Assembly: GCA_949295025.1 (NCBI GenBank) | Contig: CASFJK010000001.1 | Coordinates: forward strand, 212,958 to 276,957 | DNA from: an uncultured Pseudomonadota bacterium | Lineage (GTDB): Bacteria; Pseudomonadota; Alphaproteobacteria; RF32; CAG-239 | Direction of reading: 5' to 3' | Length of the DNA stretch: 64,000 nt | Shown: one piece after another, positions 11,127 through 27,267 of the stretch | Position numbering within the stretch: the first letter of the stretch is position 1 | Layout of the letters: each line of letters opens with the position of its first letter | Program-made: the position numbers and the translations under genes | The notes under the pieces: model-generated | What the model was told of the DNA's origin: nothing | Seen by the model: only the letters and a program-made list of their open reading frames with translations | Databases searched by the model: none

Positions 11127-11197
11127 CAATTAAAGCCATTTGTTTTATCACAATTTTTAATGGTGCTAAACCTTGTTTTTTTAGGTGGTGCTATGGG

Positions 11198-13195
11198 GTG
11201 ATACAGCAGATGGCTTTTTTATATCCAAGATTGATGCTCAGAAAACACACTTATTATATTAGAGTCCAAGTCCCAAAATCTCTCATTGATATTACAAAAA
11301 AGAAAAATATAATATATTCATTGAATACTAAGAATTATCAAGAAGCTCTATATAGGGTCAGAGAAGAATCCTACAAAGTGGATTTGTTCTTGAAACATTG
11401 TGGAAGAAGCAAGATGTATGTGGAAAATGGCAAAAAAATTTTTTTCAATGATGAGGATTATAAACACTTTTTAGTCTCAAGATGGGTATTTTTATTAAAA
11501 GAATTAGAAAAAAATGAAGCCAAAATTAAAAAAGGCATTGTTACATATAAGGATTTGAGTTTCTACCAACCAGCTCAATTAGATGATGCAGATAGAGTTG
11601 AGGTTGTTGATACATATGATAATGATGGCAATCCTATTCAAATACTTAAAGAAGTTGTTGATGTGTGGGATGGCTATAAAATTAGAGAACCCAATAGTGA
11701 TGTAGCTTATAACCCATCTGAAAATCATATGGAATATCAATTGTACCAATTCATTCTGCAAGAAATTCAGAAAATGAAGAATGAAGGCAAAATAGATTCT
11801 GATGTTGTTGACATATTGGAAGATGGGGGAGAATTGCCTTTCTTCAAAAATAAAACAGATTCTATATCAGAGTTAGATGATTTTTCTTCCAATTTTATTG
11901 GATGGCATAATTTATCTGATAGAATGAGAGAGTCTGAAAAATTGTTGTATGATAAAATTGAGAACATTAAAAATAAGACACCTGTTGAAATATCAATCTA
12001 TTTTGAAAATATTTTAGCAATAGCAAGAGAAGTTATCAAGAACTCATCAATGAATAGAAAAATTGAGGCTAAACTTCCTAATTATGAGAAATTACTACAA
12101 AAATGGTATGATTATCAACTAGCAAAGGGTAGTTCAGTTAAGGATACCAAAAACCATATCTATAAAATTAATATTATTATTTCATTGTTAAATAACAAGA
12201 AAATTAAAGATATAACTAAAAAAGATATGAGAAATATTGAGCAGAAATTATTATTGTTGCCCAAAAATGCATCAGCCAAATATCCTAACCAAAAATTCAG
12301 TGATATTATTGAGAAAACAAAAAATAATAAGAATATCCCAAAAATCAAGCCCATCACTGTTAGAGACTACATCTCTATGTTCAGTTCATTTTTAAATTTT
12401 TTGGTTGATGAGGAAATTTTATTGTCAAACCCTATCAGAGACTACAAATTTAAATATGCTGTTGGGAAAAAAGAGGCCTATGAACCTTTTACAGATGAAG
12501 AATTAGCTTTAATTTTTAACCCTAAAACATTTCCTGAATATGTTGTGAAAAATGACACTAGCAAATACCCAGAGAGATTTTGGATTTTATGTCTTATCAT
12601 CTTTTTAGGGTGCAGAGAAGATGAATTGTGTCAATTAGATGTGGCAGATATACAGTGTTTTAAAGGTGTTGATTGTATAGTTATTCAGCCATCATCTGAT
12701 AAAGATAAAAAAACAAAAACTAAGCAAAAAAGGATATTACCAATCCCTCAAAAAATTTTAGATATTGGCTTCCTAGATTATGTAAATAACAGGAAAAATG
12801 ATAACTGTAAAAAGTTATTTAACCTCAAACATAATCCCCATAATGGATATGCTCAGGAATTTGGTAGGTGGTTTGCCAGTTATCTGGACAAGATTGGTAT
12901 AACTTCAGAGCAAAAAGTGTTCCATAGTTTTAGACACCTTATGAAAATGAACTATAGGAATAATGATATTTCTGATAGTGCCATTAAAATTATTGGAGGA
13001 TGGTCTGATAATAATGGGGATGGGTTCAGTTGCTATGCTCAGGGGGCAATGGATATTGTTAAATTGAAGAAAATTGTTGATTCAGTTGATTTTCCAATGA
13101 TTGATTTTGAGACTCTAAAGAATAGAACTGTTGAGGATATTGACCCTGCTTTTAGGTCTAGAAGGAGACCCAGAAAATCTATTTTGGGAAAATAA
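11198..13195 (+). CDS. int: Tyrosine recombinase (island integrase)
   Basis: 665-residue phage-type integrase. The N-terminus (YPRLMLRKHTYYIRVQVPKS) matches the DUF6538-type arm-binding start. A long core-binding region follows, and the catalytic domain lies at about residues 430-640. Visible catalytic residues are Arg in GCREDELCQLD (about 471), a basic KTKQKRILPIP strand, HSFRH (about 575-579), GGW (about 600) and the Tyr nucleophile in SCYAQG (about 611). It would insert and excise the island at the adjacent tRNA-Ser att site. It is read here from GTG 11,198 with AGGTGG nine bases upstream; ATG 11,210 is an alternative. At 665 residues it is longer than most integrases. Confidence 0.93.
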   Translation: MIQQMAFLYPRLMLRKHTYYIRVQVPKSLIDITKKKNIIYSLNTKNYQEALYRVREESYKVDLFLKHCGRSKMYVENGKKIFFNDEDYKHFLVSRWVFLLKELEKNEAKIKKGIVTYKDLSFYQPAQLDDADRVEVVDTYDNDGNPIQILKEVVDVWDGYKIREPNSDVAYNPSENHMEYQLYQFILQEIQKMKNEGKIDSDVVDILEDGGELPFFKNKTDSISELDDFSSNFIGWHNLSDRMRESEKLLYDKIENIKNKTPVEISIYFENILAIAREVIKNSSMNRKIEAKLPNYEKLLQKWYDYQLAKGSSVKDTKNHIYKINIIISLLNNKKIKDITKKDMRNIEQKLLLLPKNASAKYPNQKFSDIIEKTKNNKNIPKIKPITVRDYISMFSSFLNFLVDEEILLSNPIRDYKFKYAVGKKEAYEPFTDEELALIFNPKTFPEYVVKNDTSKYPERFWILCLIIFLGCREDELCQLDVADIQCFKGVDCIVIQPSSDKDKKTKTKQKRILPIPQKILDIGFLDYVNNRKNDNCKKLFNLKHNPHNGYAQEFGRWFASYLDKIGITSEQKVFHSFRHLMKMNYRNNDISDSAIKIIGGWSDNNGDGFSCYAQGAMDIVKLKKIVDSVDFPMIDFETLKNRTVEDIDPAFRSRRRPRKSILGK

Positions 13196-13263
13196 AATTT
13201 TTTTCATTTTATTTTTGCTTTTTGAAATATCTGTGTGGTATCTTAATATAAATAAATTTATTA

Positions 13264-13412
13264 GTATGAGGAAAGTCACACAGATAATTGTTGGTATTAT
13301 TGTCTGTGAATACCAAAAATAGAACAGGCTTGCTATTTATTTTCCTCATACCCCACAGTATGGACTGAATGCCTAATGGCTACTTTCCATTGATTTTGCA
13401 GCAAAAAAATTA
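13264..13412 (+). ncRNA. Candidate structured RNA or origin region between integrase and HUH gene
   Basis: Non-coding DNA with nested inverted repeats. An 11-bp perfect outer helix (GTATGAGGAAA 13,264-13,274 with TTTCCTCATAC 13,341-13,351) encloses two hairpins: CACAGATAAT / ATTGTCTGTG with one G-U-type change, and AATAG / CTATT. A further ATGGA / TCCAT hairpin lies just downstream. The arrangement resembles a three-way junction. It could be a transcribed structured RNA or part of a replication origin. No open frame of note lies in the 304-bp gap. Confidence 0.4.
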
Positions 13413-13420
13413 AAACAAAA

Positions 13421-13446
13421 TAGCACCTAGAATAATCTAGGTGCTA
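13421..13446 (+). repeat. Perfect 11-bp hairpin upstream of HUH gene
   Basis: TAGCACCTAGA, loop ATAA, TCTAGGTGCTA, 53 bp before the HUH-like gene. It is not followed by a T run, so a terminator role is weak. A hairpin with a short A/T loop next to an HUH protein is the typical appearance of a rolling-circle nick site. Confidence 0.6.
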
Positions 13447-13499
13447 AATCTAACCTTTTGCCAAATTATTAAAAAATTATATCAAAAAAAGGAATAATT

Positions 13500-14048
13500 A
13501 TGACTAAAATATTTAAAAACAGAATTACTCAAGAATCACCATCAACTATTAGAAAATTAAAATCTTTGTTCATTAATATGAATAAAGATAAAAAACATAA
13601 TGAAGATACACCATATGGATTATTTTCATTTACTTTATCTCCAAATAACAATATTGATGAAATAAAATTGGAAAAAGATTTTAAATCTATTTTATCACAT
13701 TTTTATAAATGGAGATATGGAACAAAATGGAAATCTATTAAGAATATTCAATATAAATTTGAAGGAATTATTGAAAAACAAGCCTGTGGCATTAATCACA
13801 TTCATTTAACAATTTATCAATTTAATGTTGAAGAATTATCTATTTTTGTAAGTTATATAACAAAAATGTTCAAAGAATTGTATTCAAAATCCTCTTTTAA
13901 AATTTCCAAAATTTATAATATAAAAGGTTGGGAAAACTATATTTCTCCTTTTAAAACCAATAAAGACAACTTTATATCCAAAATGAGAATAACTCCTCCT
14001 ATCATTATTAATGATTTACTTTTTTCTCCATCAAAAAATGATAAATAA
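13500..14048 (+). CDS. HUH-type endonuclease-like (Rep) protein, tentative
   Basis: 182 residues, basic and Lys/Ile-rich. The centre reads GINHIHLTIYQ (His100-Ile-His102), which matches the HUH metal-binding strand of rolling-circle replication and mobilisation nucleases. About 45 residues later GWENYISPFK places a conserved-looking Tyr147 with a downstream Lys, as expected of the catalytic tyrosine helix (YxxxxxK). The first part, YGLFSFTLSP, could be the first core strand. The protein is smaller than most Rep proteins and lacks a helicase. AAAGGA lies before the ATG. The upstream hairpin and nested repeats could be its nick site. Motif evidence only, so moderate confidence. Confidence 0.5.
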   Translation: MTKIFKNRITQESPSTIRKLKSLFINMNKDKKHNEDTPYGLFSFTLSPNNNIDEIKLEKDFKSILSHFYKWRYGTKWKSIKNIQYKFEGIIEKQACGINHIHLTIYQFNVEELSIFVSYITKMFKELYSKSSFKISKIYNIKGWENYISPFKTNKDNFISKMRITPPIIINDLLFSPSKNDK

Positions 14049-14070
14049 TTATATCACTAATTAAGGATTT

Positions 14071-14340
14071 ATGATGAATGAAGAATTAAAATTATTATAT
14101 GAAATAGCAGATTGTTTAATAGCTGAAAAATTTATAAAAAGTTACAGAAATTTTAGCCTAAATTATCTAAATAAATGTCCTCCATATCTAAGTGTTCTGA
14201 AGTATTTACATAAAAAACCAAGTTTAAGGACTTTGTCTTTTCTTTTATATAAGTTGAATATGCAAAAAATTTATCCAGAAGTTCAATCTCAATTACATTT
14301 AATAATTAAAAATAAATTAGCATCAAAGGACTTGATATGA
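14071..14340 (+). CDS. Small helical protein, DUF6626-like (tentative)
   Basis: 89 residues: IKSYRNFSLNYLNKCPPYLS then HKKPSLRTLSFLLYKLN. This order (Ser-x-x-x-Phe-Ser, Tyr-Leu, Pro-Ser...Leu) resembles small helix-turn-helix-like DUF6626 proteins of alphaproteobacterial plasmids and phages, but I cannot confirm it without a profile search. It starts at tandem ATGs behind AAGGA and overlaps the next gene by ATGA, so both are probably translationally coupled. Confidence 0.55.
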   Translation: MMNEELKLLYEIADCLIAEKFIKSYRNFSLNYLNKCPPYLSVLKYLHKKPSLRTLSFLLYKLNMQKIYPEVQSQLHLIIKNKLASKDLI

Positions 14341-15005
14341 GGGAAGATGTTAATTTTGACAACTTAATAAGTAAAATAGATTTGATACTAAATTCACCCA
14401 AACCAATTCCAAACTTTATTAAAAAGGATAAAGAATTAGCTCAAATGTTGGAAGATTTGCAAGAAATTTCAGAATATGAGACACTCAATCAATTTGAGGA
14501 GTTATTTGATAAAGAGCCATTTTTGATGCAATTTTTGATAGGTGCTGATTTTACAAAACTTTTGAAAATTATAGATAGAACTACTATGAAATATGAGCAT
14601 CTGGATGACTATACAGCTCTTCATATGATAGTGGTTAATCCTTGTATTGCTAATGTTGAAAAAACAGTAATTATTGATAGAATGCTGGAAATGGGTTGCA
14701 ATATTAATCAAACATCAGCAAGAGGTGAAACAGCTCTATTTTTAGCAGTGAAGAGAAATAACAGAAAAATGATTGAATATTTGCTTCAAAAAGGAGCAAA
14801 CCCAAATATTTCTAATAATTTGAGAATAACTCCAATGATGGTGGCAACATTTAATTCCCAACTCTATAATATGGCAATCCTCAAATTTTTTAATTCTCAA
14901 ATGGGTGCAACCTGTACATCCTATCAGTTTGATGTTTTTGACATAGCAGAAATAACCAAAATCTCAAATACAATGGAAGTCTTGAGGGATTTGAGAAGAA
15001 GTTAA
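14337..15005 (+). CDS. Ankyrin-repeat protein
   Basis: 222 residues. The N-terminal ~100 residues are unassigned. From about residue 95 there are ankyrin-type helices: DDYTALHMIVVNPCIANVEK, then ARGETALFLAVKRNNRKMIE followed by YLLQKGANPNI, and NLRITPMMVATFNSQLYN. The second of these is a canonical repeat (G-TALxxAxxxxxxxxxxxLLxxGAxPN). Ankyrin repeats mediate protein-protein contact. In intracellular and gut alphaproteobacteria they occur in effectors as well as in mobile-element proteins. There is no secretion signal. Start overlaps the preceding stop (ATGA); a terminator follows. Confidence 0.8.
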   Translation: MREDVNFDNLISKIDLILNSPKPIPNFIKKDKELAQMLEDLQEISEYETLNQFEELFDKEPFLMQFLIGADFTKLLKIIDRTTMKYEHLDDYTALHMIVVNPCIANVEKTVIIDRMLEMGCNINQTSARGETALFLAVKRNNRKMIEYLLQKGANPNISNNLRITPMMVATFNSQLYNMAILKFFNSQMGATCTSYQFDVFDIAEITKISNTMEVLRDLRRS

Positions 15006-15013
15006 TACTAAAT

Positions 15014-15044
15014 AAAAAAGCCAGAAATAAATCTGGCTTTTAGT
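15014..15044. terminator. Bidirectional terminator
   Basis: Stem AAAAGCCAGA / TCTGGCTTTT with loop AATAAA lies between the convergent ankyrin and serine recombinase genes and serves both strands. Confidence 0.8.
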
Positions 15045-15635
15045 TTAAATAATAAATTCTGTTACATATCTATGAAGAGTAGTCCAGGTGCACCCCATTA
15101 ATCTTGCTATTTCAGCTTTTGATACTTTTTTATCCAATAATTCTTTAATTTTATTATGTTTTTTCTTCAATTTTTTATAAGAAAACCCATAAGGTCTACC
15201 TAAATGTTTCCCCTCATTTTTCAATCTTTTTAATGATTCTTTTGTCCTCTGTGAAATTAGTTGTCTTTCAATTTCACTGGCAAGGGAAAAGGCAAATGCT
15301 AATACTTTACTCTGAATATCAGCCCCTAAATGATAGTTTTCTTTAACAGTTATAATTTCACACTCTTTTTCAAGACAAGTTTGCAAAATTCCCATAACTT
15401 CTAACATATTTCTACCAAGTCTTGAGATTTCAGTTGTGATTACTATATCTCCTTTTTTGAGCTTATTTAACAACTTTCCCAATTTTCTTTGAGCCAAAGG
15501 TTTTCTTGATGAAATAATTTCCTCAACAAATTCATTTATGCATAAATTATTTTTCTCTGAGAAATTTTTAAGTTCAAACTTCTGATTTTCACAATTTTGC
15601 AAATCAGTACTAACTCTAATATAACCATATATCAT
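15045..15635 (-). CDS. Serine recombinase (resolvase/invertase family), left copy
   Basis: 196 residues. The N-terminal catalytic domain begins MIYGYIRVSTDLQNCENQ with the active Ser at position 9, followed by TTEISRLGRNMLEVMGIL (conserved Arg pair) and a long E-helix with ASEIERQLISQRTKESL. A C-terminal helix-turn-helix reads SKAEIARLMGCTWTTLHRYV. Size and layout fit small DNA invertases and resolvases such as Hin, Gin and TnpR. It is transcribed away from the type III restriction genes; a second recombinase bounds them on the other side. Its own upstream DNA contains inverted repeats that may be target sites. Confidence 0.92.
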   Translation of the reverse strand: MIYGYIRVSTDLQNCENQKFELKNFSEKNNLCINEFVEEIISSRKPLAQRKLGKLLNKLKKGDIVITTEISRLGRNMLEVMGILQTCLEKECEIITVKENYHLGADIQSKVLAFAFSLASEIERQLISQRTKESLKRLKNEGKHLGRPYGFSYKKLKKKHNKIKELLDKKVSKAEIARLMGCTWTTLHRYVTEFII

Positions 15636-15698
15636 ATTTAATCCTTTGTTATTACATTGATATTTATCAAAAATAACTATACAAAGGTTACAAAAATA

Positions 15699-15732
15699 AT
15701 AGCTAAACTAAATGTCCATCTAGTTTAGCTAT
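15699..15732 (-). repeat. Perfect 12-bp hairpin with ATGGACATT loop
   Basis: ATAGCTAAACTA and TAGTTTAGCTAT are exact inverted repeats around a 10-base loop. On the minus strand, that is in the recombinase leader, the loop reads GATGGACATT. The same nine bases ATGGACATT form the loop of the mod leader hairpin on the plus strand. Confidence 0.75.
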
Positions 15733-15796
15733 TACAAATAATGGTATTATAAAATAATAAAAAATATATTAAAGCAAGTTATTTCCTTGTTTTTCA

Positions 15797-15802
15797 TATA
15801 AT
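15797..15802 (+). promoter_or_regulatory. Probable -10 box for the type III restriction operon
   Basis: TATAAT stands 83 bp before the mod start codon. No good -35 box is present at 16-18 bp, so the promoter may need an activator or extended contacts. Confidence 0.35.
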
Positions 15803-15844
15803 TAAGGTGTTTTAAGAGAGGTTTCCTCATTTATCATAATTTAG

Positions 15845-15872
15845 CTCTCCATAAATGGACATTTGTGGAGAG
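15845..15872 (+). promoter_or_regulatory. Mod leader hairpin hiding the ribosome-binding site
   Basis: CTCTCCATA pairs with TGTGGAGAG at eight of nine positions around a 10-base loop AATGGACATT. The right arm contains GGAGAG, the ribosome-binding site seven bases before the mod ATG at 15,880. Pairing would therefore hinder translation, so this is a plausible on/off element. Confidence 0.55.
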
Positions 15873-15879
15873 TATGTCT

Positions 15880-17553
15880 ATGTCTTTAAAAGAAGAATAT
15901 ATTGCCAAACTTGATAAGATACCAACAGTATCATTCAACAAAGAACAAAAACAAATTGCTAAAACAATTATTGAAAATACTCCTGATAAAGATTTGGATG
16001 CTGTTTATGGTTTAATCACACAAAGAGTTAAGACAGGATTTGTTTTTGATGAAGCTCCTGAGGTAAATCATAATGCTGTTGCTCTTATTAAAGAAAATAG
16101 TACTTTAGGTATAAATGTTGATTTAGTGGGAAAACTTGAACATAAGTTAATAATTGGGGAAAACTATGATGCTTTAAAAAATTTATGTGCCACTTATATA
16201 GATAAAAATGGCAAAGGTTTAATTGATGTTATCTATATTGACCCTCCATATAATACAGAAGCAACCAAAGAAGATGGAAATGATTATAAAGAAGAAGTTG
16301 AAGCTAGTAAATTTGTTTATAGAGATAAATTTACCAGAGATGGTTGGTTAAATATGATGAATGAAAGGTTAAAACTAGCCAAGAGATTATTAAGTGATTC
16401 TGGTGTCATTTTTATATCTATTGATGATAGTGAGCAGGCATATTTAAAGGTATTATGTGATGAAATTTTGGGAGAAGATAATTTTATTGCCAATTTTATT
16501 TGGGAAAAAACACAACATTTTGGAAGACAAAAATTAAATAGTTATACAAATGGTGATTATATTTTATGTTATGGGAAGAATTTAAAAAGCAATGGGTTAA
16601 AAGAACTTTTGGTTGAAAAAATAAATACTCAATTGTTAGATGCTCCACTATATAATGCCTCCAATAATACAAAAGTCCTTACATTTCCTAAAGGTTCTGT
16701 AAAATTTAATTTAAGAGATGGTATATATAATGAGACAACATCATCTGATTATATATTGAAAAATCAAGTAAATGTTGTAAATGGAGTAAATGATAATGAT
16801 TTTATGTTAGAATTTAAATCAAGATGGTCTGCAAAGACTGTAAAAGAAGAAATTGAAAAAGGAACAAAATTTTGGGTAAAGACACAGAGTTTTGCTATAA
16901 GAGCCATCTATTCTAATGATAAAGAGGCCAAAGTGTCTCCAAGACAAATAATTTTTACTAATAAGAACAATCCATACTGTACATACAGCAGATATGGAAC
17001 AAAAGTTGGTACTAATGAAGAGGCATCTAGTGAATTAGAGTGCATTTTAAAAAATAAATTATTTTCATACCCCAAACCTGTATCTTTAATAAAATATCTA
17101 TTATCTTTATTATTTGATAATAGCCAACAAAAAACTAAAATAGATGCCATTATCCTTGATTTCTTTGCTGGTAGTGGAACAACTGGGCAGGCTGTAATGG
17201 AGCTAAATGAAGAAGATGGAGGACAAAGAAAGTTTATTTTAGTTACCAATAATGAAAATGGTATTGGTGAAAAGATAACAAGAGAAAGACTTTATAGGGT
17301 CATCAATGGAGAAGGTAGTCAAGGTGAAAAGATTGATTGGATTTACACCAAAGAGAAGCCATATTTGACCAATAATAGTGTAAGGGTATTTAATATTGAA
17401 ACAGAAGAGCTGACCTTACAAGATTTAGATAAGGCAGAAAAATTAAAAGACAAAGCAAAATTAGAATTTAAGAAACTTAATGAAAATTATAATATAAATA
17501 ATGATTTTGACATCTATAATGAATTGTCAGCACTTAATCCACTAAAAAAATAG
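15880..17553 (+). CDS. mod: Type III restriction system, DNA methyltransferase subunit (Mod)
   Basis: 557-residue beta-class DNA amino-methyltransferase. Motif IV VIYIDPPYNTEA (DPPY at about 121-124) comes before motif I FFAGSGTTGQAV (about 427-436), the circular order of type III Mod proteins. The region between is the target-recognition domain. It methylates adenine in an asymmetric target and gives specificity to the Mod2Res complex. Starts at 15,865 (GTG) and 15,874 are possible, but ATG 15,880 has GGAGAG at the right distance. The restriction subunit follows after 11 bp. The target site cannot be read from sequence. Confidence 0.92.
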   Translation: MSLKEEYIAKLDKIPTVSFNKEQKQIAKTIIENTPDKDLDAVYGLITQRVKTGFVFDEAPEVNHNAVALIKENSTLGINVDLVGKLEHKLIIGENYDALKNLCATYIDKNGKGLIDVIYIDPPYNTEATKEDGNDYKEEVEASKFVYRDKFTRDGWLNMMNERLKLAKRLLSDSGVIFISIDDSEQAYLKVLCDEILGEDNFIANFIWEKTQHFGRQKLNSYTNGDYILCYGKNLKSNGLKELLVEKINTQLLDAPLYNASNNTKVLTFPKGSVKFNLRDGIYNETTSSDYILKNQVNVVNGVNDNDFMLEFKSRWSAKTVKEEIEKGTKFWVKTQSFAIRAIYSNDKEAKVSPRQIIFTNKNNPYCTYSRYGTKVGTNEEASSELECILKNKLFSYPKPVSLIKYLLSLLFDNSQQKTKIDAIILDFFAGSGTTGQAVMELNEEDGGQRKFILVTNNENGIGEKITRERLYRVINGEGSQGEKIDWIYTKEKPYLTNNSVRVFNIETEELTLQDLDKAEKLKDKAKLEFKKLNENYNINNDFDIYNELSALNPLKK

Positions 17554-17564
17554 GATAATAGATT

Positions 17565-19799
17565 ATGGAACTGACATCATTACAATTAAAGACAACAACA
17601 GATATCTTAAATTTATATAACCCAAATGAAAAGGTTATATGTGAATTTAAATCTCCAACAGGTAGTGGTAAAACTTTAATGGCATCTTATTTTATATCTG
17701 CCTTAATTGAACAGAATCCAAATGATAAGTTTATTTTTGTCATAGCAACCCCTTCTTCATCATCACTACCATACTTTTTTGAACAAAAAATAAACAAATA
17801 CAAGGTTGATTTGCCATATTCAAATTTTGAGGCAGAGTATATCCAATCTCCATCATCTGCCAAAACAGATAAAACAGAAAGCATAGAGAAAATAATACCT
17901 GAACAAAATAAGGTTTATATTTTTGGAAAAGCTTCTTTTGGAAAAGGAAGAATATTAAGTGAATATGGAATCATTGATGATTTTGTAGTGTCAGCAATAG
18001 ATAAAGGTTATAAACTCATTTATATTAGAGATGAGGCTCATATTGGTGGTGAAAAACAAACCAAAGATGAAAATTTTGAAACATTAATGAATAACAATGC
18101 TTCCTTTGTTCTGAAAATGACAGCAACACCAGATAATAACAATCCTTTTACAAAAAAAGTAATATTAAAAGAAAGCCAATTAAACAATCCTGTTCTAAAT
18201 GATGGCAAGTGGCTATTAAAAACAATCCCAGTATCATTATTAGATAAAGATTTAGAAGACACAGAAATCTTGGAAGATGCTATTAAACATTTTAAAAAAA
18301 TAAAAGAGGATTATGCCAAACTTAATATTGGTATTCATCCTGCAATGCTTATTCAAGTGGATAATGATGCTCCAACAGATAAAATTAAATCCCAAAAATT
18401 TAAAGAGGCACTGATTGAAATAAAAAAAACATTTGATGCTCATAATATTGCTTGGGTTCAATACTTTGGAAACAATGATAAGGATTCAAATAGAGTTTAT
18501 AAAAAAGATTTTACTTTGGATGAAATTACTGAAAACAATAACATCATTGATGCTATTATATTTAAAATAGGTCCTTCAACAGGTTGGGATATTCCAAGAG
18601 CAAATATGCTTATTCAATTAAGAAATGTATCTTCTTCAAGTCTTAATATTCAAACTTTAGGAAGAATTAAAAGAAATCCATATCCAAATCTTGAATGGAA
18701 TGAAACAACATCAAAATATTATATCTATTCTAATACCCAAAAAACAAATGATGATGTAAGTGAATATAATTATAAGGTTAGAGATAAATTTTCTACTGAA
18801 ACATTTTTATCTATAGATATAGAAAATAAAGCAGAAATTAAAGATTCTAAATCCAATGAGGAATTTAAAAAGAATTTTAGCTCTTGGCTATATGGGGTGG
18901 AAAATCCAATTTTACAAGAAGTAGAGAGTACATTTATTGATAATCACAAGACATATAGAAAAGTTTTAAGTACTGCAAAAGGTAATCAAATTTACACAAC
19001 AATAACAAATCCATTTATCTTTTTAAGAGACTACAAAAGGTTTATAACTGTAAATAAGCAATTGTGTGATTTAATAAAACCAATCACAGATATTTTTTGT
19101 GATAAACATAAGATTCAAAAAAAATTTCTAAATATAATATTATTGAATAGCCATAAGAAAGATATATTAAACATTATCTCAAAAACAAGAACAAGAAAGC
19201 CAAAATACAAGATTACAGAACATCCTTATAATCCTGTCTTTTACAAAGAGATTTATGAAAAAGACCAAGAAAAAAAGAAAATTTCAAAAAGAGATTATCT
19301 CTTTGGCATAAATGAAGATGATATGCTGAATGGAAATCAGCAACCACTAGATTCTACCCCAGAAAAAGTTGTATTTAATTTAATACAAAATTATACAGAA
19401 GATTATGAAGGTATACATATATGGGCAAAAAATCTAACAGCATCAAATATTTTTGGAGAATATTTAGATGATATGCTTAATGTTAAAAAAAGTTATTTTG
19501 ACTTCATATTGAAATTTGAGAATGGCTTCTATCTTTATATTGAAGTGAAAGGAATACCGGATATCAATGCTGATAAAACAGAATTATTGAAAAGTGCTTA
19601 TTCTGATTATTTTAATAAAAGAATTGATGATTTATTTTCTCCCAAATTAGCTATAGCTGTGTGGGAAGTTAATACTACAAATAATAACTATTCTATACAT
19701 TCCTCAGTGTATTATGATAAACAAACAATCACAGAAAACTTAAATAAATTCTCTGCAGAGCAATTGTTGGATAAATTAGCCAATTTAAATATAAAATAA
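17565..19799 (+). CDS. res: Type III restriction system, endonuclease/helicase subunit (Res)
   Basis: 744-residue superfamily 2 translocase with a C-terminal nuclease. Walker A reads SPTGSGKTLMA (about 30-40), the DEAH box IRDEAHIGG (about 155-163), and motif VI QTLGRIKRNPYP (about 362). Near the end, SYFDFILKFENG followed by YLYIEVKG supplies the D-(x)n-ExK signature of the PD-(D/E)XK nuclease (about 645-662). With Mod it would cleave DNA carrying two unmodified head-to-head sites. It is somewhat shorter than classical EcoP1/EcoP15 Res (about 970 residues) but has all key motifs. Arg is coded only by AGA/AGG; its one CG is at 19,558. Confidence 0.92.
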   Translation: MELTSLQLKTTTDILNLYNPNEKVICEFKSPTGSGKTLMASYFISALIEQNPNDKFIFVIATPSSSSLPYFFEQKINKYKVDLPYSNFEAEYIQSPSSAKTDKTESIEKIIPEQNKVYIFGKASFGKGRILSEYGIIDDFVVSAIDKGYKLIYIRDEAHIGGEKQTKDENFETLMNNNASFVLKMTATPDNNNPFTKKVILKESQLNNPVLNDGKWLLKTIPVSLLDKDLEDTEILEDAIKHFKKIKEDYAKLNIGIHPAMLIQVDNDAPTDKIKSQKFKEALIEIKKTFDAHNIAWVQYFGNNDKDSNRVYKKDFTLDEITENNNIIDAIIFKIGPSTGWDIPRANMLIQLRNVSSSSLNIQTLGRIKRNPYPNLEWNETTSKYYIYSNTQKTNDDVSEYNYKVRDKFSTETFLSIDIENKAEIKDSKSNEEFKKNFSSWLYGVENPILQEVESTFIDNHKTYRKVLSTAKGNQIYTTITNPFIFLRDYKRFITVNKQLCDLIKPITDIFCDKHKIQKKFLNIILLNSHKKDILNIISKTRTRKPKYKITEHPYNPVFYKEIYEKDQEKKKISKRDYLFGINEDDMLNGNQQPLDSTPEKVVFNLIQNYTEDYEGIHIWAKNLTASNIFGEYLDDMLNVKKSYFDFILKFENGFYLYIEVKGIPDINADKTELLKSAYSDYFNKRIDDLFSPKLAIAVWEVNTTNNNYSIHSSVYYDKQTITENLNKFSAEQLLDKLANLNIK

Positions 19800-20735: not shown

Positions 20736-20743
20736 AAAAAAAA

Positions 20744-21814
20744 TTACAGAGAACATAAATTATTACATAAGTTTAGCTTGCATTTTCCAACACATTTATT
20801 TTTTAACAGGCAAGAAGAACAGCTATCTATTTGAATGTTCCTAAACTGATTAAACACCTCTGAATCCCATACTTCTTTAATGGTTGAATTTTGCATATTA
20901 ACCTTAAAATCACCTCTATCACAATCAAAAGAACAGGGATAAGCATTTAATTCTGAATCTATGTACATAGAAAATCTGGCTGCTTCACAAAAATCTAAGG
21001 AATTTTCTAAAACAGATTGGCATTTTCTTAGCAATGCTGGTGTGCAGCAAGTATCAAACCCTATTCTGAAAGAAAAATTATTTAATTGTACTAAATCTAA
21101 AAAATGAATAAATTCCTTATTCTGCAAGGATATTTCATTAATTTTATTTCCTAATCCAGTTCCTTTGTATAATAAAAATATAATAGCATTAATTCCCTGA
21201 GGAAAAAGATTATGTTCAAGCCTATATACAGCATCTTTTATGCTATTTTTAGAAAGGACATAATGAATATTTGTTCTGCATCCAGCTTTTACCAATTTAT
21301 TAATTGCTTCTATTGTCATTGGATTAGATTCTTGACCATCTTTTAATGTAGTATAAAAAGAAACAGCTACAGCTCCACAATATGTTTTCATAGCAGATAT
21401 TTCATTATCTGACATAAAGTATCCAGTTGTAGTTAAATTAGGGACAATATTATATTTTCTAGAAAGCTTCAGAATTTCTAGAAAATCAGGATGCTTGTTG
21501 GGGTCTCCTGCTCCACCTAAGGCAATTTGAAATGTCTTGCCAGAGGCCTCTTTAACAATTCTTTGAAAATCAATTAGCTTCATATGAGGTTTATGCTTTT
21601 TTATTGCACTTTGGTAACAATCAACACCTGCTTTTTTACAAATTCCTAATGAAGCAACATGACAACTTCCCATAATTCCAACATCTATTAATTCAGGAAA
21701 AGACCTTTGTACTGGGGTGGATTGAGTTCCTTCAATATCTCCTCTATAAAGGAAGCCATTTTTGGGGTTAAAAATTTCAAAGAAATTATATTTTGTATCT
21801 TTATAAATAATCAT
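20744..21814 (-). CDS. Radical SAM/SPASM-type maturase with unusual cysteine spacing
   Basis: 356 residues, last gene of the six-gene operon. The N-terminal third has GSCHVASLGICKKAGVDCYQ: Cys51, Cys59 and Cys66 spaced Cx7Cx6C rather than the standard CxxxCxxC. It is followed by ALGGAGDPNKHPDF, a good match to the SAM-binding GGEP loop. The C-terminal ~90 residues contain a SPASM-like cluster domain (AYPCSFDCDRGDF, then KEVWDSEVFNQFR, then CSSCLLKNKCVGKC). SPASM enzymes mostly modify ribosomally made peptides or small proteins. The gene starts 3 bp after the stop of the small RNGFV protein, its most likely substrate. That pairing is inference. Confidence 0.8.
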   Translation of the reverse strand: MIIYKDTKYNFFEIFNPKNGFLYRGDIEGTQSTPVQRSFPELIDVGIMGSCHVASLGICKKAGVDCYQSAIKKHKPHMKLIDFQRIVKEASGKTFQIALGGAGDPNKHPDFLEILKLSRKYNIVPNLTTTGYFMSDNEISAMKTYCGAVAVSFYTTLKDGQESNPMTIEAINKLVKAGCRTNIHYVLSKNSIKDAVYRLEHNLFPQGINAIIFLLYKGTGLGNKINEISLQNKEFIHFLDLVQLNNFSFRIGFDTCCTPALLRKCQSVLENSLDFCEAARFSMYIDSELNAYPCSFDCDRGDFKVNMQNSTIKEVWDSEVFNQFRNIQIDSCSSCLLKNKCVGKCKLNLCNNLCSL

Positions 21815-21817
21815 GTC

Positions 21818-22198
21818 TTACCAAATACAATTTTGCCCATCTAGAAAAAAATCATCATCATCTATTATAAAAGAATCTGTTGTAAAAAAACTAGTAATGA
21901 TATTATCATCTGAATTAGTTTTTCCTACTAATATATAATATCCTGAATTTTTATAGCTTTTCCATTTGTTGGCAGTGCTTTTACCAAACATTTTCCTAAC
22001 TTTATTATATGTTAATTTCTCTTCTTGATTTATTCCTTTTAATATGCATGAAGCTAATTGAATTCCTACCTCTTTTAGAGGAGAATCTTCTAAAAATCCT
22101 AATTTTTTGTACAGATTATCAACAGTGAGTTCTTCTTTACTCATAATTATGAAATTAGTTGAAGAGCTATTTGTAACAAAACCATTTCTAATTTTCAT
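21818..22198 (-). CDS. Small protein with MKIRNGFVTNSSS N-terminus, candidate maturase substrate
   Basis: 126 residues when started at ATG 22,198, which has GGAG nine bases upstream; an ATG at 22,222 would add eight residues. The N-terminus MKIRNGFVTNSSSTNFII matches a recurrent signature (MKIRNGFVSNSSSSSF) that I recall at the start of many otherwise unrelated small bacterial and phage proteins of unknown role. The C-terminus is acidic and ends DDDDFFLDGQNCIW. No membrane helix or known domain is present. It overlaps the preceding gene by 11 bp and is followed 3 bp later by the radical SAM gene, suggesting it is modified by that enzyme. Confidence 0.7.
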   Translation of the reverse strand: MKIRNGFVTNSSSTNFIIMSKEELTVDNLYKKLGFLEDSPLKEVGIQLASCILKGINQEEKLTYNKVRKMFGKSTANKWKSYKNSGYYILVGKTNSDDNIITSFFTTDSFIIDDDDFFLDGQNCIW

Positions 22199-22601
22199 TA
22201 AAACTTTCTCCAAAAAAATCATTAAACAAATTTAGAAAAAATTCATCCTCTGTCAGAAATTGTACATTATATTCATTAACATCATTAAGATTGGTATAAT
22301 AACAATTATGTTTTTTAAAATAACAAATCTCTTTTTTAAAAAGTTTATGTCGTATTTTTAAATAGTCAGAAAAGCTATCAAATTCTTTTGAATAATACTT
22401 ATGATACTCTTTTTTTAAACTAACTGCATATTTAGCATATCTATTAAACATTTTTTCTACAATCCTAGCAGCATAAGAACCTTTTTTAACCTGAGCCATT
22501 TTTAAAAAAGAGTTTAGATTGCTATTCTTTTTAGTCTTTATGTAATATAGAAAAGCTTCATCATAATCATTTTGATTCTTGATTTTTAAATATTTATACA
22601 T
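22188..22601 (-). CDS. Unknown basic, tyrosine-rich protein in defence-like operon
   Basis: 137 residues; not recognised. Very rich in Lys, Tyr, Phe and Asn, largely helical by composition (AQVKKGSYAARIVEKMFNRY, KEYHKYYSKEFDSFSDYLKI), with an acidic C-terminus. No signal peptide, membrane segment or catalytic motif stands out. Its start lies 8 bp inside the 3' end of the NTPase gene and its end overlaps the next gene by 11 bp, so it is translationally coupled in the operon. It contains one of only two CG dinucleotides of the island (22,351). It may be a recognition or adaptor subunit; no function is claimed. Confidence 0.65.
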   Translation of the reverse strand: MYKYLKIKNQNDYDEAFLYYIKTKKNSNLNSFLKMAQVKKGSYAARIVEKMFNRYAKYAVSLKKEYHKYYSKEFDSFSDYLKIRHKLFKKEICYFKKHNCYYTNLNDVNEYNVQFLTEDEFFLNLFNDFFGESFNEN

Positions 22602-24735
22602 TTTCCTTTTTTAATTCCCTGATAAAATTCTGACATCTTTGTTTTAAAATGCTACAGCTACTTTTTTTTGTAATATTATCTAATATGATTTCAATATTTT
22701 TATATTTTTTAATCAAATCATACAAAAAATTTTTTTTATGATAATCATCTGATAAATAACAAATCAAAATCAATTGTATAAAGATATCTAAATTATCTGC
22801 TAAAAGTTTTCTATCTACTACTTCTAAAGATTTACTGCTTACTACTAATAAAGCACCTATATTTTCATAATTCATTAAGATATTATAAAATATATCCAAA
22901 GAATAACAACCATGTTGCAACTCATTAATTACTAAAAATTTAAATAATATAAATATATCATTATTTGCTAATCCAAATCCTGTATATTCTTTAAATACTG
23001 ATAATATATAAATATATTCAAAATCTAACAACTCTTTGTTACAGTTGAAAATAATGTTAAGTCCCATATTAACAAAAGTTTTGTTTTCATTATTGTTTAT
23101 GGAGAATATTCTTTCTTTCAAAAATTTGTTAATAATTTCCAGACATAGAATAGTGTTGTTCTCAGCTCTAAAATGAGCATATGAATAAGTCAGGATTCCT
23201 TCAAATGGAGAAAGATGAGATTGTTGCATTTTAGTCAATGTATCAAATAATAATTGATAGTGTTTCATATTTTCATTTTGACAATTGGATATTAAATATT
23301 TTGCTATGCAATAATCTCTTAACTCATCAAATACAAAATAAAACTCTTCATCAGCCTCTTCACTAATAAACCCTTTATGTTTTATAATTTTTCTGCTCAT
23401 TAATAAGTTTTCATCACATATTTTTCTAAATTCATTTAATTGAAAAGAGGTTAAATTTAATCTACTTCCACAAATTTTATCATAATTTTCTTGTTCAACC
23501 ATTTTTGAGATTAATCTGTTGATATATAAACATATGTCAGGAACTTTTGTTTCTAGGTTATGAATAAAATTTTTATAAATTTCATATCTATTTAAATTAA
23601 CAAAATTGTCTTTTTTATTTTTACAATATTCAAAAAAGATTCTCATTAGCAATAAAGAATTCATCAAATAATGAAAAATATTATAACTAATTTTTCCTTT
23701 AAAATTATAATAAGCCTTGTAAGTTTGATATAAAAAAGAAACTGTCCTAGGATTTATATTAGAACTTAAATAATAATTTTCCATATCATATACAAAAGGA
23801 GAAATTTCTGAATCAATAAAAATTTTATTATACCTTTCTTCAAAGTATTCACTTCTGCAAGATATTAAAATTTTTATTGTTCTAAATTTTAATAAGTTAT
23901 GTAACAATTTAGGCAAAGTATTTTTAAATTCAGAACTATCATTTTCATTAATAGCATCTATTACTATGAATAAATTAGTTCTCAATATAATATTTTTAAT
24001 ATTAAGTAAATTCAAAGAAAAATTTGGAAATATTTTAATTGGCAAGTGTAACTTTTCTAACAAATCAGCCTCTACATTAGACAAATCTCTAGAATTTACA
24101 AATACACAAGTATTTTTTAACTTTATAATTAAAGAAACTAAGTTACAAAGAATACTGGTTTTCCCATTTCCAGCACTTCCTTTCAATAATACCAGTCTCT
24201 CTGTTGCAAGGACTACTTTTCTCAAAATTTTTTCTAATTGATATTTTTTTAAGGAGCAGTTATGTGTATTATCTTTTTCTCCAACATCTAAATTTATTAA
24301 CAGCTCTTTGTTACAGGGATATTGGTTATAAAGTTCTTTATTTTTTTCTATACATTTTTTTATTTTGTTAAGAGACATAATTTTATTTAATTTAAATGAA
24401 ATAGCTTTATTCTTAATATGAGTCTTAAGGAAATTGCCATTTTCATCATTATATAAGTTATTAAAATCATTAATGATTCTAGTCTTCCACTTTCCTCCAT
24501 ATACAAAATATCTTAAAGATTCTTTTGTCTCCCCTAATTCAACATATAAATCTTCTAAATATTTTTCTTCTTTTTTAAATTTATCAATTAATTTTTGAGA
24601 GTCTTTATTAACTAGTTTTCTATTAAAAAATAGATTTATAAAGGGAAGAATCAAAATGAAAAGAAGTGTTTCAATATTAGAGAATAAATCTTTAATATCT
24701 ATTATGTTTTGTAAATAACTTGGTAATTCTATCAT
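22594..24735 (-). CDS. Membrane-anchored STAND/NACHT-like NTPase
   Basis: 713 residues. One hydrophobic helix near the N-terminus (ETLLFILILPFINLFF, residues 22-37) is followed by a charged linker. The P-loop LLKGSAGNGKTS lies at about 183-194, Walker B FIVIDAINEND at about 256-265, and a sensor ISCRSEYFEE at about 291-300, the set seen in NACHT/STAND signalling ATPases. The remaining ~400 residues are helical and leucine-rich without a recognised repeat, probably the sensing part. STAND proteins in bacteria often detect phage proteins and trigger an effector. Here no nuclease or protease domain is fused, and the partner genes downstream may act instead. It starts directly after the rloB stop. 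Confidence 0.78.
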   Translation of the reverse strand: MIELPSYLQNIIDIKDLFSNIETLLFILILPFINLFFNRKLVNKDSQKLIDKFKKEEKYLEDLYVELGETKESLRYFVYGGKWKTRIINDFNNLYNDENGNFLKTHIKNKAISFKLNKIMSLNKIKKCIEKNKELYNQYPCNKELLINLDVGEKDNTHNCSLKKYQLEKILRKVVLATERLVLLKGSAGNGKTSILCNLVSLIIKLKNTCVFVNSRDLSNVEADLLEKLHLPIKIFPNFSLNLLNIKNIILRTNLFIVIDAINENDSSEFKNTLPKLLHNLLKFRTIKILISCRSEYFEERYNKIFIDSEISPFVYDMENYYLSSNINPRTVSFLYQTYKAYYNFKGKISYNIFHYLMNSLLLMRIFFEYCKNKKDNFVNLNRYEIYKNFIHNLETKVPDICLYINRLISKMVEQENYDKICGSRLNLTSFQLNEFRKICDENLLMSRKIIKHKGFISEEADEEFYFVFDELRDYCIAKYLISNCQNENMKHYQLLFDTLTKMQQSHLSPFEGILTYSYAHFRAENNTILCLEIINKFLKERIFSINNNENKTFVNMGLNIIFNCNKELLDFEYIYILSVFKEYTGFGLANNDIFILFKFLVINELQHGCYSLDIFYNILMNYENIGALLVVSSKSLEVVDRKLLADNLDIFIQLILICYLSDDYHKKNFLYDLIKKYKNIEIILDNITKKSSCSILKQRCQNFIRELKKENV

Positions 24736-25329
24736 TTACATAGTTCCATTCTTTAATAACTCAGAAATTACTTTATGCATATTTGTATAAGGATTAGAGT
24801 TTTCATCTAAATCCAATTCTTCTGCATTTTTTATAGCAAAATCCAAACCTTCCTTTAAATCATTGAAGATATCTGATTTGGCTTTTAGCTGAGGCAATTC
24901 ATAAGCTGTTTTGAATTTTTTATTATATAAATTTCTAAAATATTCACAGCATTCTTTAGCATTTAAAAATGATTTACTGGTTTTTTGAATATGAAGTAAA
25001 AGCCAATACTCATAACAAGGAACAGAAACAGCTTCAATAAAACCTTCTGTCCTACATTCTTGTATTACCCTTTTGAATTCAACATCAGAACTATCATCCT
25101 TGTCAAAAAAACAGTAAATTTTGACAAACTCCTTATCTATAAAGGAATTATATTTTTCTTTTGCTGTTCTTAAAACATTATCAGGACTTGTGCCATAAGC
25201 ATTTTCTGCTTTAATGTTAATTCCTTTTGCTTTTCCCAATCCTTGCATATAGTATTTGGAAGATTTGCTATCTTCACAAACAAAAAGATGTAAAGGTTGT
25301 AACTGTCTATTTCTTTGAGACCTTGCCAT
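24736..25329 (-). CDS. rloB: RloB-like protein (AbiL-type second component)
   Basis: 197 residues. The N-terminal strand LHLFVCEDSKSSKYYMQGL with Glu19 and the acidic IYCFFDKDDSSD (Asp77/79/80) form the Toprim-like core described for RloB-domain proteins. YEYWLLLHIQKT and the following helices are also typical. RloB genes are found beside AAA ATPases in restriction and abortive-infection loci (RloA/RloB, AbiLi/AbiLii), as here: the ATPase gene ends 3 bp upstream. It probably is the nuclease-like effector of the pair. It also abuts the STAND gene with no spacing, so both belong to one transcript. Confidence 0.85.
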   Translation of the reverse strand: MARSQRNRQLQPLHLFVCEDSKSSKYYMQGLGKAKGINIKAENAYGTSPDNVLRTAKEKYNSFIDKEFVKIYCFFDKDDSSDVEFKRVIQECRTEGFIEAVSVPCYEYWLLLHIQKTSKSFLNAKECCEYFRNLYNKKFKTAYELPQLKAKSDIFNDLKEGLDFAIKNAEELDLDENSNPYTNMHKVISELLKNGTM

Positions 25330-25332
25330 TAT

Positions 25333-26487
25333 TTAGTCTCCATTTATATGAGGAACAGCACCAAATATACCATACATATATTCATTATAAAAAGTGCCTT
25401 TTCTTCTTTTAATCTGTTTGAAGTCACTTAATGAATACAATTCACTGGAATATCCATTTTCTTTTGATGTAAACCAAATCTGGTCTCTGGTTAAGTGTTC
25501 TCCATCCATTAAATAATGAGCATGAGAGGTAAAAATAAGTTGAGCTCCCTTAGGATTTGTTTGGGGTGAATTGAACAAATCTACCAAATACTTTACTAAA
25601 TGAGGATGAAGAGAATTATCCAACTCATCAATAAAGAGCACACTTCCTTTATCTAACACCCAGAAAATATCTTCAGACAGACACAGTAACATCTGAGTTC
25701 CATCAGATTCTTCTAACATAAAGTCAAAAGTAATCTCCTGTCCATCCTCACTTTTATGTGTTGAATACAAACCATCTCTATTTACAATTAATTTTGTAAT
25801 AGGAATATCTGCTTTTCTTAAAAATTCAGCTTTTTTCTGTAAATTAGATTTAGAAGACAATATCTTATCTTTCAAAACATCTTTATAATCAATGCTAAGA
25901 ATATCAATATCCATAATCCAATTATATATATCTAAAATATGCTGGTCTTGATTATTTCTATTGTTGACTAACTCACTGACAAGAAGTCTTGTCTTAATAG
26001 TCTGTTTTGCTATTTCTTTATCTAAACCATAAGGGCTATTAAAATCTTCAGAAGTCCTTTTAAATAAGCACTTCTCTCTTTTATCTTCTTCTAATTCTGT
26101 ATAATAAGCTTCTTCTTTTACAATTCCATTATCATTCAATTCCACAAAATATCTATATGCTGTTTGATTTTTTATGAATTCAAATTCAAAAGTTGAATTT
26201 TTATTCTGCTCACTTAACTTATAAGCAGGAACTTCCATTTGCTCATTAAATCTCTTTAAATAACTTACTTCCATTAATCCCTGAAAATAAGAAACAGCAT
26301 GAATAAAACTTGATTTTCCTGAAGCATTAGCTCCAAAAATTGCAGATGTTCTATAAACAACAGGAGATTTTTTATAACCTGTCTCTATTATATTATCTAC
26401 TTCTCCATTATTGGTTAAGGGCTCCATAGAAAATTCAACTTCATCCTTAAAACTTTTATAATTGCTAAATTTAAAACTTATCAGCAT
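25333..26487 (-). CDS. rloA: RloA-like AAA ATPase (AbiL-type first component)
   Basis: 384 residues, ABC/SMC-like single-chain ATPase of the AAA_15/AAA_21 group. It begins MLISFKFSNYKSFKDEVEF. Walker A FGANASGKSS lies at 51-60, a signature-like SDGTQMLLCL near 261, Walker B VLFIDELDNSLHP near 283-295, and the switch strand LIFTSHAHYLM near 320. Such proteins pair with RloB or OLD-type nucleases and couple ATP to phage sensing. It is the first gene of a six-gene minus-strand operon with a good promoter 44 bp upstream. Context in the island with a type III restriction system supports a defence role. Confidence 0.87.
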   Translation of the reverse strand: MLISFKFSNYKSFKDEVEFSMEPLTNNGEVDNIIETGYKKSPVVYRTSAIFGANASGKSSFIHAVSYFQGLMEVSYLKRFNEQMEVPAYKLSEQNKNSTFEFEFIKNQTAYRYFVELNDNGIVKEEAYYTELEEDKREKCLFKRTSEDFNSPYGLDKEIAKQTIKTRLLVSELVNNRNNQDQHILDIYNWIMDIDILSIDYKDVLKDKILSSKSNLQKKAEFLRKADIPITKLIVNRDGLYSTHKSEDGQEITFDFMLEESDGTQMLLCLSEDIFWVLDKGSVLFIDELDNSLHPHLVKYLVDLFNSPQTNPKGAQLIFTSHAHYLMDGEHLTRDQIWFTSKENGYSSELYSLSDFKQIKRRKGTFYNEYMYGIFGAVPHINGD

Positions 26488-26530
26488 ATAAACACCATTC
26501 TTTGCAAATTTTTAACATAGATATGCATCT

Positions 26531-26559
26531 AATATATGAAATATATATAAATAAGTCAA
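26531..26559 (-). promoter_or_regulatory. Promoter of the six-gene defence-like operon
   Basis: On the minus strand TTGACT, 17-bp A/T-rich spacer, TATATT, ending 44 bp before the rloA start. It is a near-consensus sigma-70 promoter, so constitutive expression is plausible. Confidence 0.55.
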
Positions 26560-26686
26560 GTTATTATCAAATAAGATTTTGTGTAACATATTGCTAAATC
26601 TCAACAGTTTCTAATATAGATTCATTAATTTTAAATAGAATTAAAATACTATTCTCTAAATAATAGATAAAGGAGTATAGTAAAAA

Positions 26687-27100
26687 ATGAATGAAACAGA
26701 GCTTGCTTGGATAACTTATAGTTTATGGTTTGTTATTGGACTTCTTGTATATCTTTATGAGCAAAATGAAATTATTATAAAAAACAAAACAATAAAAAAA
26801 ATCCAAATAAAAGTATCTAAAATTTATGCAAAAATGAATGTGTTATATAATGTAAAATTTATGATGCTATTATTAATTCTGTATATTTTCATTCCTCCTT
26901 TATTTATTGAGTCTTTTTTAACTTCTATATTTGGTGAAGCCTATGGAGTATGTTTTAGAGATGAAATATGTAGTTACTCTTTGGTCTCATTACTTATACA
27001 TCTTTTTATTACTGCAATTTTAGTTTGTTTATTCATAAATAAAAAGTATGTCCAACACTATAGCCATATATATAAAGCAAAAAAATACAATAGTTTTTAA
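26687..27100 (+). CDS. Small membrane protein of unknown function
   Basis: 137 residues with three to four hydrophobic segments: WITYSLWFVIGLLVYLY at the start, FMMLLLILYIFIPPLFIESF in the middle and LLIHLFITAILVCLFINK near the end. The ends are basic (Lys-rich, KAKKYNSF). It has two cysteines in a short loop (VCFRDEICSY). Not recognised. AAAGGAG lies 12 bp before the ATG. It is transcribed divergently from the defence-like operon, alone, at the right end of the island, and lacks CG dinucleotides like the rest of the element. Possibly an immunity, superinfection-exclusion or toxin-like membrane protein, but nothing in the sequence proves this. Confidence 0.6.
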   Translation: MNETELAWITYSLWFVIGLLVYLYEQNEIIIKNKTIKKIQIKVSKIYAKMNVLYNVKFMMLLLILYIFIPPLFIESFLTSIFGEAYGVCFRDEICSYSLVSLLIHLFITAILVCLFINKKYVQHYSHIYKAKKYNSF

Positions 27101-27267
27101 CTAATTATTTTTTTTGGAATTCATTATTTAAAATAAAAGAAAACCATTTATAAAAATTATTATTGCATTCAAGTGCTAAATAGTGTATATTTTGAGGAAA
27201 ATTGGAGTGATAGAAATGTCAATTTTGTGTTGTTAAAACAAATGGTTATGTGGCAAAAATTTTACAG

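Follow-up and report, generated by a model that had tools for sequence, protein, structure and literature searches.

A genomic island of 16,141 bp in an uncultured alphaproteobacterium (GTDB lineage RF32; CAG-239) is almost completely devoid of the dinucleotide CG, and it shares this state with a set of integrative elements found in genomes of the same order. The window analysed here is a stretch of 64,000 nucleotides (GenBank assembly GCA_949295025.1, contig CASFJK010000001.1, positions 212,958 to 276,957 of the forward strand); the island occupies positions 11127–27267 of this window, whose first letter is position 1. We consider it probable (roughly 0.6 by our own estimate) that CG was lost through selection at transfer, exerted by a DNA-cleaving barrier that has CG as its effective target.

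Depletion of CG in the island

An exhaustive count finds exactly two CG steps in the island (19558 and 22351), the same two sites that had been picked out by the sequence-only reading, a first inspection of the letters that preceded this analysis. Approximately 288 are expected from base composition, so that the observed-to-expected ratio (o/e) is 0.01. As that reading had also noted, the steps GC, CC and GG are not depleted, being at or above the normal level (o/e 1.20, 1.34 and 1.29, respectively), and the flanks are rich in CG (o/e 0.97 on the left and 0.93 on the right). The value for 14 sampled stretches of the host's own DNA is 0.95; host stretches with an apparent zero proved to be runs of N and were excluded as evidence. 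The tetranucleotide GATC is indeed missing from the island (none against about 40 expected from trinucleotides, a figure that becomes 80 when both strands are counted) and occurs 49 times in the flanks, while CATG is present in six copies against about 44 expected. By base composition, the o/e values of the host chromosome (flanks and sampled genome) are 0.15 for CTAG, 0.32 for GATC, 0.36 for TCGA, 0.38 for GTAC and 2.88 for CCGG.

Codon choice as the cause was considered and rejected, since intergenic DNA and codon junctions are depleted equally; the shortage is thus a property of the DNA, as first proposed. The three codon phases of the island hold one, one and no CG (57, 85 and 100 expected), and its 1428 bp of intergenic DNA contain no CG and 34 GC. 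The accompanying claim that all arginines are encoded by AGA or AGG and that no NCG codon occurs is accurate except for a single CGA and a single CCG codon.

The island (G+C content 26.7%, compared with 36–37% in the host flanks) lies between two copies of a 20-bp direct repeat, TCCCTATCTCTCCGCCATAA, the left copy being the 3′ end of a tRNA-Ser gene. Its edges coincide with these attachment (att) sites, because the CG nearest to the gap on either side (11119 on the left, 27280 on the right) is in each case part of the repeat; neither a few dozen CG in the interior nor a break in CG frequency away from the repeats was encountered. A tyrosine integrase gene beside the target tRNA gene and the direct att repeats are hallmarks of an integrative element.

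A set of CG-free elements in the order

The integrase and the ankyrin protein of the island, along with an integrase from a CG-free relative, served as queries against 154 genomes of the order, and the surroundings of the matches were fetched (fetched loci are denoted by L, genomes by G). The search revealed seven further CG-free stretches (table 1), located at tRNA-Gln, tRNA-Arg and, by our reading, rpsI; other islands of this composition, which the sequence-only reading had recommended looking for, thus exist. Two of them, L123 and L124, may be the two ends of one island, since both come from one genome and both run off contig ends. All eight stretches together, including the window's island, comprise 72,921 bp with only four CG, each a single site, against 1370 expected (o/e approximately 0.003), no GATC against 204 expected and 18 CATG against 211. 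The palindromes CG, GATC and CATG show the strongest depletions in the set; the next non-CG tetranucleotide by z-score is CCAG (159 against 262 expected), and the other palindromes listed include GGCC (10 against 38) and GTAC (42 against 76). Depleted targets that are strand-symmetric in this way point to an agent acting on double-stranded DNA. For GATC and CATG, the depletion goes beyond the level of the host: by base composition, the CG-free elements have none and 18, respectively, against 179 expected of each, and 237 kb of sampled DNA of the window's own host have 250 and 649 against 783 of each. Individual elements differ in other palindromes, with AGCT at 0 against 18 expected in L076 and 8 against 34 in L129, and GTAC at 0 against 34 in L129, which may reflect differing exposure to enzymes.

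In all five islands for which both ends are available, the CG-free stretch ends 0–60 bp from a direct repeat of 17–28 bp. The repeat retains CG in three of the five, which fits with CG being kept where the sequence has to match the host target. The CG-free elements have core genes in common, and their integrases (four types by our own grouping of the sequences) and cargo differ. An all-against-all comparison did not bring up any gene that would be unique to these elements and mark them, as the integrase type, the second resolvase and the cargo all vary. In a resolvase tree, which is small and has a long outgroup, the CG-free label needs two changes in 95% of the bootstrap trees; the starred branches force one. 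The view that the CG-free elements form one clade only was set aside, as the tree favours two changes, although a single origin may still hold, because the starred branches force only one change and the outgroup is long.

Two further integrase queries, judged by the loci fetched, did not enlarge the set of CG-free islands. As the islands were found by homology, CG-free DNA that does not carry these genes was missed. All genomes involved are in draft state and, where named, are metagenome assemblies. Relatives in named records (seven loci) all belong to uncultured Alphaproteobacteria, one of them from the cecum of a water deer, and their contigs are identical with contigs of the G genomes. The hosts are related small-genome Alphaproteobacteria that, judging from one sample source, dwell in the gut.

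Loss and maintenance of the CG-free state

Homologous genes from CG-bearing relatives serve as built-in controls for the manner in which CG was lost. A site counted as polarised when two or more of the CG-bearing relatives, making up no less than half of them, share CG there (L179 being entered as a fragment of 138 nt only). At none of the 120 such sites is CG kept in the CG-free genes, compared with 35% of 169 control sites for GC and 30–56% for six other dinucleotides. Transitions account for 31% of the single-step replacements of CG, against 40% in the GC control and 27–69% in the other controls. The commonest replacement is AG (43%), i.e. arginine CGN changed to AGN, and TG and CA together make up only 19% in a smaller, unpolarised set. 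If methylated CG had been deaminated, TG and CA should predominate, so replacements without an excess of transitions do not support deamination as the sole cause.

The CG-free copies differ from each other in 4–16% of their DNA, and no CG has been gained in the genes compared. In spanning pairs of CG-free copies from seven gene families, none of 1055 substitutions gave rise to CG in the target sequences (one CG is present in L120, which served as a starting sequence), against 69 expected when the substitutions are shuffled with the base change and codon position kept. This expectation is probably about half too high, given that in the control, pairs of CG-bearing copies with 474 substitutions, 18 CG were gained against 33 expected; the fair value is perhaps 37, and zero is still far outside it. 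The absence of gains indicates that the taboo was kept up while the elements spread among several genera rather than being imposed once, and the island does not appear to be a relic of one past passage.

The mechanism that we favour would work as follows. The elements would be an integrative mobile family circulating among related Alphaproteobacteria, often with defence cargo. On each entry into a new cell, a CG-recognising barrier that cleaves DNA would destroy the incoming copies in proportion to their number of CG, and selection would then remove CG until none is left. The agent could be a direct CG endonuclease, or a nuclease cutting methylated CG in DNA that arrives from CG-methylating donors. 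CG would stay where function demands it, as in the att core, or where mutation followed integration. More specifically, a previously undescribed DNA-interference system of these Alphaproteobacteria or their neighbours, recognising bare CG (or methylated CG), may have driven the elements CG-free, an idea to which we give slightly less than even odds.

CG-bearing relatives and the choice between explanations

The DUF6626 core gene is present at 36 loci in 30 of the 154 genomes. CG o/e, determined for 1.5 kb (once 1.0 kb) centred on this gene, is zero at seven loci, 0.125 at one (G115) and between 0.295 and 1.125 at the remaining 28. The four nearest CG-bearing core relatives (L125, L126, L127 and L130; 28.8 kb with approximate element borders) have an overall CG o/e of 0.63. 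They contain no GATC (89 expected) and no CATG (93 expected), and they are poor in palindromes that include CG: TCGA occurs 6 times against 96 expected (all six in L130), CCGG 3 against 26, GCGC 3 against 31, ACGT 13 against 46 and, by base composition, CGCG 4 against 19. Such a shortage of 4-bp palindromes is the mark that restriction avoidance would be predicted to leave. Non-palindromic NCGN contexts stand at 0.63–1.05 in these relatives (ACGA 0.91, ACGG 1.05, CCGA 0.80), unlike the CG-free elements, where CG is at or near zero in every context.

These figures bear directly on the possibility that several ordinary restriction enzymes with CG-containing targets of 4–6 bp jointly cover all NCGN, which would make an agent with a 2-bp target unnecessary. 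The impoverishment of the relatives in all CG-containing 4-bp palindromes agrees with it, as do the intermediate CG levels of some core loci and the frequency of C5-methylases, which we detected in 70 of the 154 genomes; seven of the 30 extracted were compared with the Protein Data Bank, and each of these seven had HhaI or HaeIII as its top-scoring relative of solved structure. The frequency of C5-methylases speaks for the favoured barrier as well. Yet the non-palindromic contexts are hardly depleted in the relatives and nearly zero in the CG-free set, and a mixture of enzymes should give a graded pattern, whereas seven of 36 core loci are exactly zero and just one lies between 0 and 0.29. We therefore regard such a combination as unlikely, if deserving of attention.

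A mutational origin, in which hosts methylate CG and deamination of 5-methylcytosine turns it into TG or CA until none is left, appears more unlikely still. A shortage of CG is known from Mollicutes, the sole group with described CpG methylases according to the available part of one report (PMC9465063), and the two best-ranked matches of the island's Mod protein among plasmid records are from Mollicutes. In addition, third-position C before G seems to have been replaced by T. The spectrum of replacements given above speaks against this origin, as does the ordinary CG content of the present host and of the fetched host flanks, and the total loss of GATC would be left unexplained. By our own estimate, an o/e of about 0.003 would call for a mutation rate at CG hundreds of times that of other sites. 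The copy of Mod in Mycoplasmopsis cynos (52% identity over the matched pieces, which cover 62% of Mod) is not CG-free either, since its region has a CG o/e of 0.63 and 32 GATC in 11.5 kb. The sequence-only reading had named two possible causes, a CG-attacking defence and long residence in a CG-methylating host: a CG-directed attack on DNA has become the best explanation, and residence as a mutational cause is not supported, given the missing transition excess and a depletion more than 100 times deeper than that of Mycoplasma agalactiae.

The elements could also stem from a donor lineage with a wholly CG-free genome and have entered these hosts recently, which would account for the sharp borders and for a G+C content of 27% next to 36–37% in the host flanks. 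We think this very improbable: the elements sit at the tRNA genes and rpsI of these very hosts, CG-bearing relatives occur in the same family for each gene family compared, and the divergence of the copies has added no CG. Core relatives were, moreover, found in no other family: a search of 385 genomes from the class gave the ankyrin core protein in a single one, that to which the window belongs, and the seven loci in named records are from uncultured Alphaproteobacteria. Least credible is a pressure through RNA or CRISPR (clustered regularly interspaced short palindromic repeats), with CG as part of a protospacer-adjacent motif or as the target of a CG-cutting mRNA interferase. A self-complementary CG would serve either strand, but intergenic DNA is equally CG-free, the palindromes GATC and CATG were lost along with CG, and we would not expect a protospacer-adjacent motif to force total removal without matching spacers, for which no search was made.

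Several observations weigh against a CG-directed barrier as set out above. The CG-free state is not strictly all-or-none, as illustrated by G115 (0.125) and G161 (0.295), and L045 (G008:C25, approximately 1000–7000), beside another integrase gene and tRNA-Met, is a partly depleted element with a CG o/e of 0.30–0.59 (1.3–1.8 in the adjoining host DNA). Three genomes (G059, G071 and G086) each hold one CG-free and one CG-normal core locus; the state therefore belongs to the element and not to the present host. Nor does the barrier mark all mobile DNA of the order, since phage-like DNA at all 30 terminase loci fetched (from 36 matches to PF03237 in 32 of the 154 genomes) is CG-normal (o/e 0.56–1.53) and contains GATC. 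Part of the palindrome shortage is common to the host, the window flanks being short of TCGA (0.44), GCGC (0.59) and ACGT (0.68), with CCGG in excess (2.47), and the more distant core loci contain some GATC or CATG. At fourfold sites, T before G has a frequency of 0.51, compared with 0.36–0.40 before A or T and 0.52 before C; the excess is ambiguous, as it would be expected from deamination or plain transition bias too. The shortfall of CG gains in the CG-bearing control pairs belongs here as well. A restriction enzyme with a target as short as 2 bp is not known to us. Neither a nuclease nor a methylase specific for CG came to light, with seven of the 30 extracted C5-methylases compared and no SssI or MpeI query used, and the available text of one study describes prokaryotic CpG methylases in Mollicutes only (PMC9465063).

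One locus of the depleted kind may illustrate what happens after an element comes to rest. L128 (G115:C13, 7512–11500), beside an integrase reading frame interrupted by a stop, has 4 CG against 54 expected (8 over a slightly longer stretch), i.e. about 0.1 of the expectation. This single case suggests that CG may be regained once movement has stopped, with selection acting only on moving elements.

Gene content of the elements

By reading of open reading frames, the island has 15 genes (table 1), among which no transfer or packaging gene was recognised by Pfam. The Rep-like core protein, with its invariant H-x-H motif, is a putative rolling-circle (HUH) initiator, judging from sequence. Its counterpart by position in L078 (2222–2896) matches REP_ORF2-G2P with 25 bits, under the model cut-off of 27.8. 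Kinship of the two Rep types is not established, because the profile comparison gave an E value of only 0.06. Plasmid records contain no match to the Rep-like protein. The radical SAM/SPASM gene adjoins two genes for small proteins (20744–22601, minus strand), one of which has the N-terminal stretch RNGFVTNSSSTNF; these genes are possibly a peptide-modifying or viperin-like defence unit.

Table 1. Features of the CG-free island in the window and CG-free stretches at other loci of the order.
Sequence	Feature	Coordinates	Strand	Basis or remark
Window	tRNA-Ser (cga), integration target	11032–11123	+	ARAGORN
Window	attL, 20-bp direct repeat	11107–11126	+	carries last CG (11119) before the CG-free stretch
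Window	tyrosine recombinase (integrase), DUF6538 N-terminus	11198–13195	+	Pfam PF20172, PF00589
Window	Rep-like core gene, invariant H-x-H motif	13500–14048	+	no Pfam match; protein alignment
Window	DUF6626 core gene	14071–14340	+	Pfam PF20331
Window	ankyrin-repeat core protein	14337–15005	+	Pfam; relatives at 59–93% identity
Window	Mpi-like serine recombinase	15045–15635	-	protein 100% identical to that of CG-free L120
Window	type III restriction-modification Mod, cargo	15865–17553	+	PADLOC MTase_III
Window	type III restriction-modification Res, cargo	17565–19799	+	PADLOC REase_III; contains residual CG 19558
Window	second serine recombinase	19956–20507	+	93–95% identical in CG-free L078, L120, L123
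Window	radical SAM/SPASM protein, cargo	20744–21814	-	
Window	small protein	21818–22222	-	no Pfam match
Window	small protein	22188–22601	-	no Pfam match; contains residual CG 22351
Window	NACHT/STAND NTPase, weakly Avs2-like, cargo	22594–24735	-	NACHT 24.6 bits, under cut-off
Window	RloB/AbiLii-like, cargo	24736–25329	-	
Window	AAA ATPase, AbiLi-like, cargo	25333–26487	-	
Window	small, apparently hydrophobic protein	26687–27100	+	no Pfam match
Window	attR, 20-bp direct repeat	27268–27287	+	carries first CG (27280) past the CG-free stretch
L076	CG-free stretch	1753–8759		at tRNA-Gln
L078	CG-free stretch	1798–11063		at tRNA-Gln
L120	CG-free stretch	7183–18377		3′ end of presumed rpsI
L122	CG-free stretch	1–3500		3′ end of presumed rpsI; runs off contig end
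L123	CG-free stretch	1–7894		3′ end of presumed rpsI; runs off contig end
L124	CG-free stretch	8895–13268		at tRNA-Gln; runs off contig end
L129	CG-free stretch	947–14490		inside tRNA-Arg

The cargo of the other CG-free elements often includes restriction systems as well. L076 carries an NgoPII-type restriction enzyme and methylase (3223–5110) without any CG, and the methylase gene, with 0 CG here, has 45 and 23 CG in two CG-normal loci (relatives of the methylase are in L151 and L153). A fused restriction-modification protein is found in L078, a type ISP enzyme together with a Fic protein in L129, and AAA/KAP ATPases in L120. Directly upstream of the CG-free element at tRNA-Gln, L078 has a CG-normal integrase gene (1–1797), which suggests that two elements, one CG-normal and one CG-free, were inserted in tandem. 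In L129 the host gene for tRNA-Arg(CCT) is interrupted at the anticodon region by the element, which brings along a complete, CG-free tRNA-Arg(CCT) of its own at 12141–12217; the CG-bearing relative L126 also carries a tRNA-Arg(CCT), at 2473–2549.

A phage origin of the CG taboo was considered and rejected on the grounds of the 30 terminase loci mentioned above, which represent one family. Scans of viral collections found no relative of the island; phage records gave three distant integrase matches and one ankyrin match, the latter in a Wolbachia phage.

Comparison with known systems and implications

Integrative elements that target tRNA genes and carry defence islands are known, with a tyrosine integrase beside the tRNA gene, att repeats, serine recombinases and a variable cargo of restriction-modification and abortive-infection genes. 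The island resembles them in all these respects and differs in being CG-free from end to end, to the extent that L129 even has a CG-free copy of the tRNA gene it splits. Avoidance of restriction sites has been described for plasmids: 6-bp palindromes are avoided more markedly in their genes than in core genes, with no significant difference for 4-bp ones; such avoidance is stronger in smaller plasmids and in those with a broader host range, as stated in the available part of that study (PMC10359461). Both cases have restriction targets that are rarer in mobile DNA than in core genes of the host, but those in plasmids are 6-bp palindromes, whereas our elements have lost a 2-bp step throughout their length, whatever the context, and the 4-bp GATC is at zero as well. 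Suppression of CpG in Mollicutes, associated with methylases of the SssI/MpeI type, is alike in affecting AT-rich DNA and in the presence of GATC-specific enzymes in the same organisms. In Mycoplasma agalactiae, one strain of which has an active CG methylase, o/e is 0.46–0.5 genome-wide, again as far as the available text goes (PMC9465063), while in our elements it is about 0.003, confined to the element and without a transition excess. A methylase of the SssI/MpeI type was not seen here, none having been searched for by its own sequence.

Among the top-ranked literature matches, judged by title and abstract, we found no published counterpart concerning CG-free elements, CG-specific restriction or 2-bp targets. 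The phenomenon would thus be restriction avoidance, known in mobile DNA, in an extreme form, with an as yet unproved chance of a new kind of agent. To our knowledge, no dinucleotide has been lost more completely from cellular DNA in nature. If a single enzyme is responsible, be it a nuclease or a methylation-dependent system, its 2-bp target would make it a new tool and would set a new limit of restriction; if not, the elements offer a way to gauge the strength with which combined restriction shapes mobile DNA. In either case, many gene families, including methylases, integrases, ATPases and a tRNA, can evolve without any CG.

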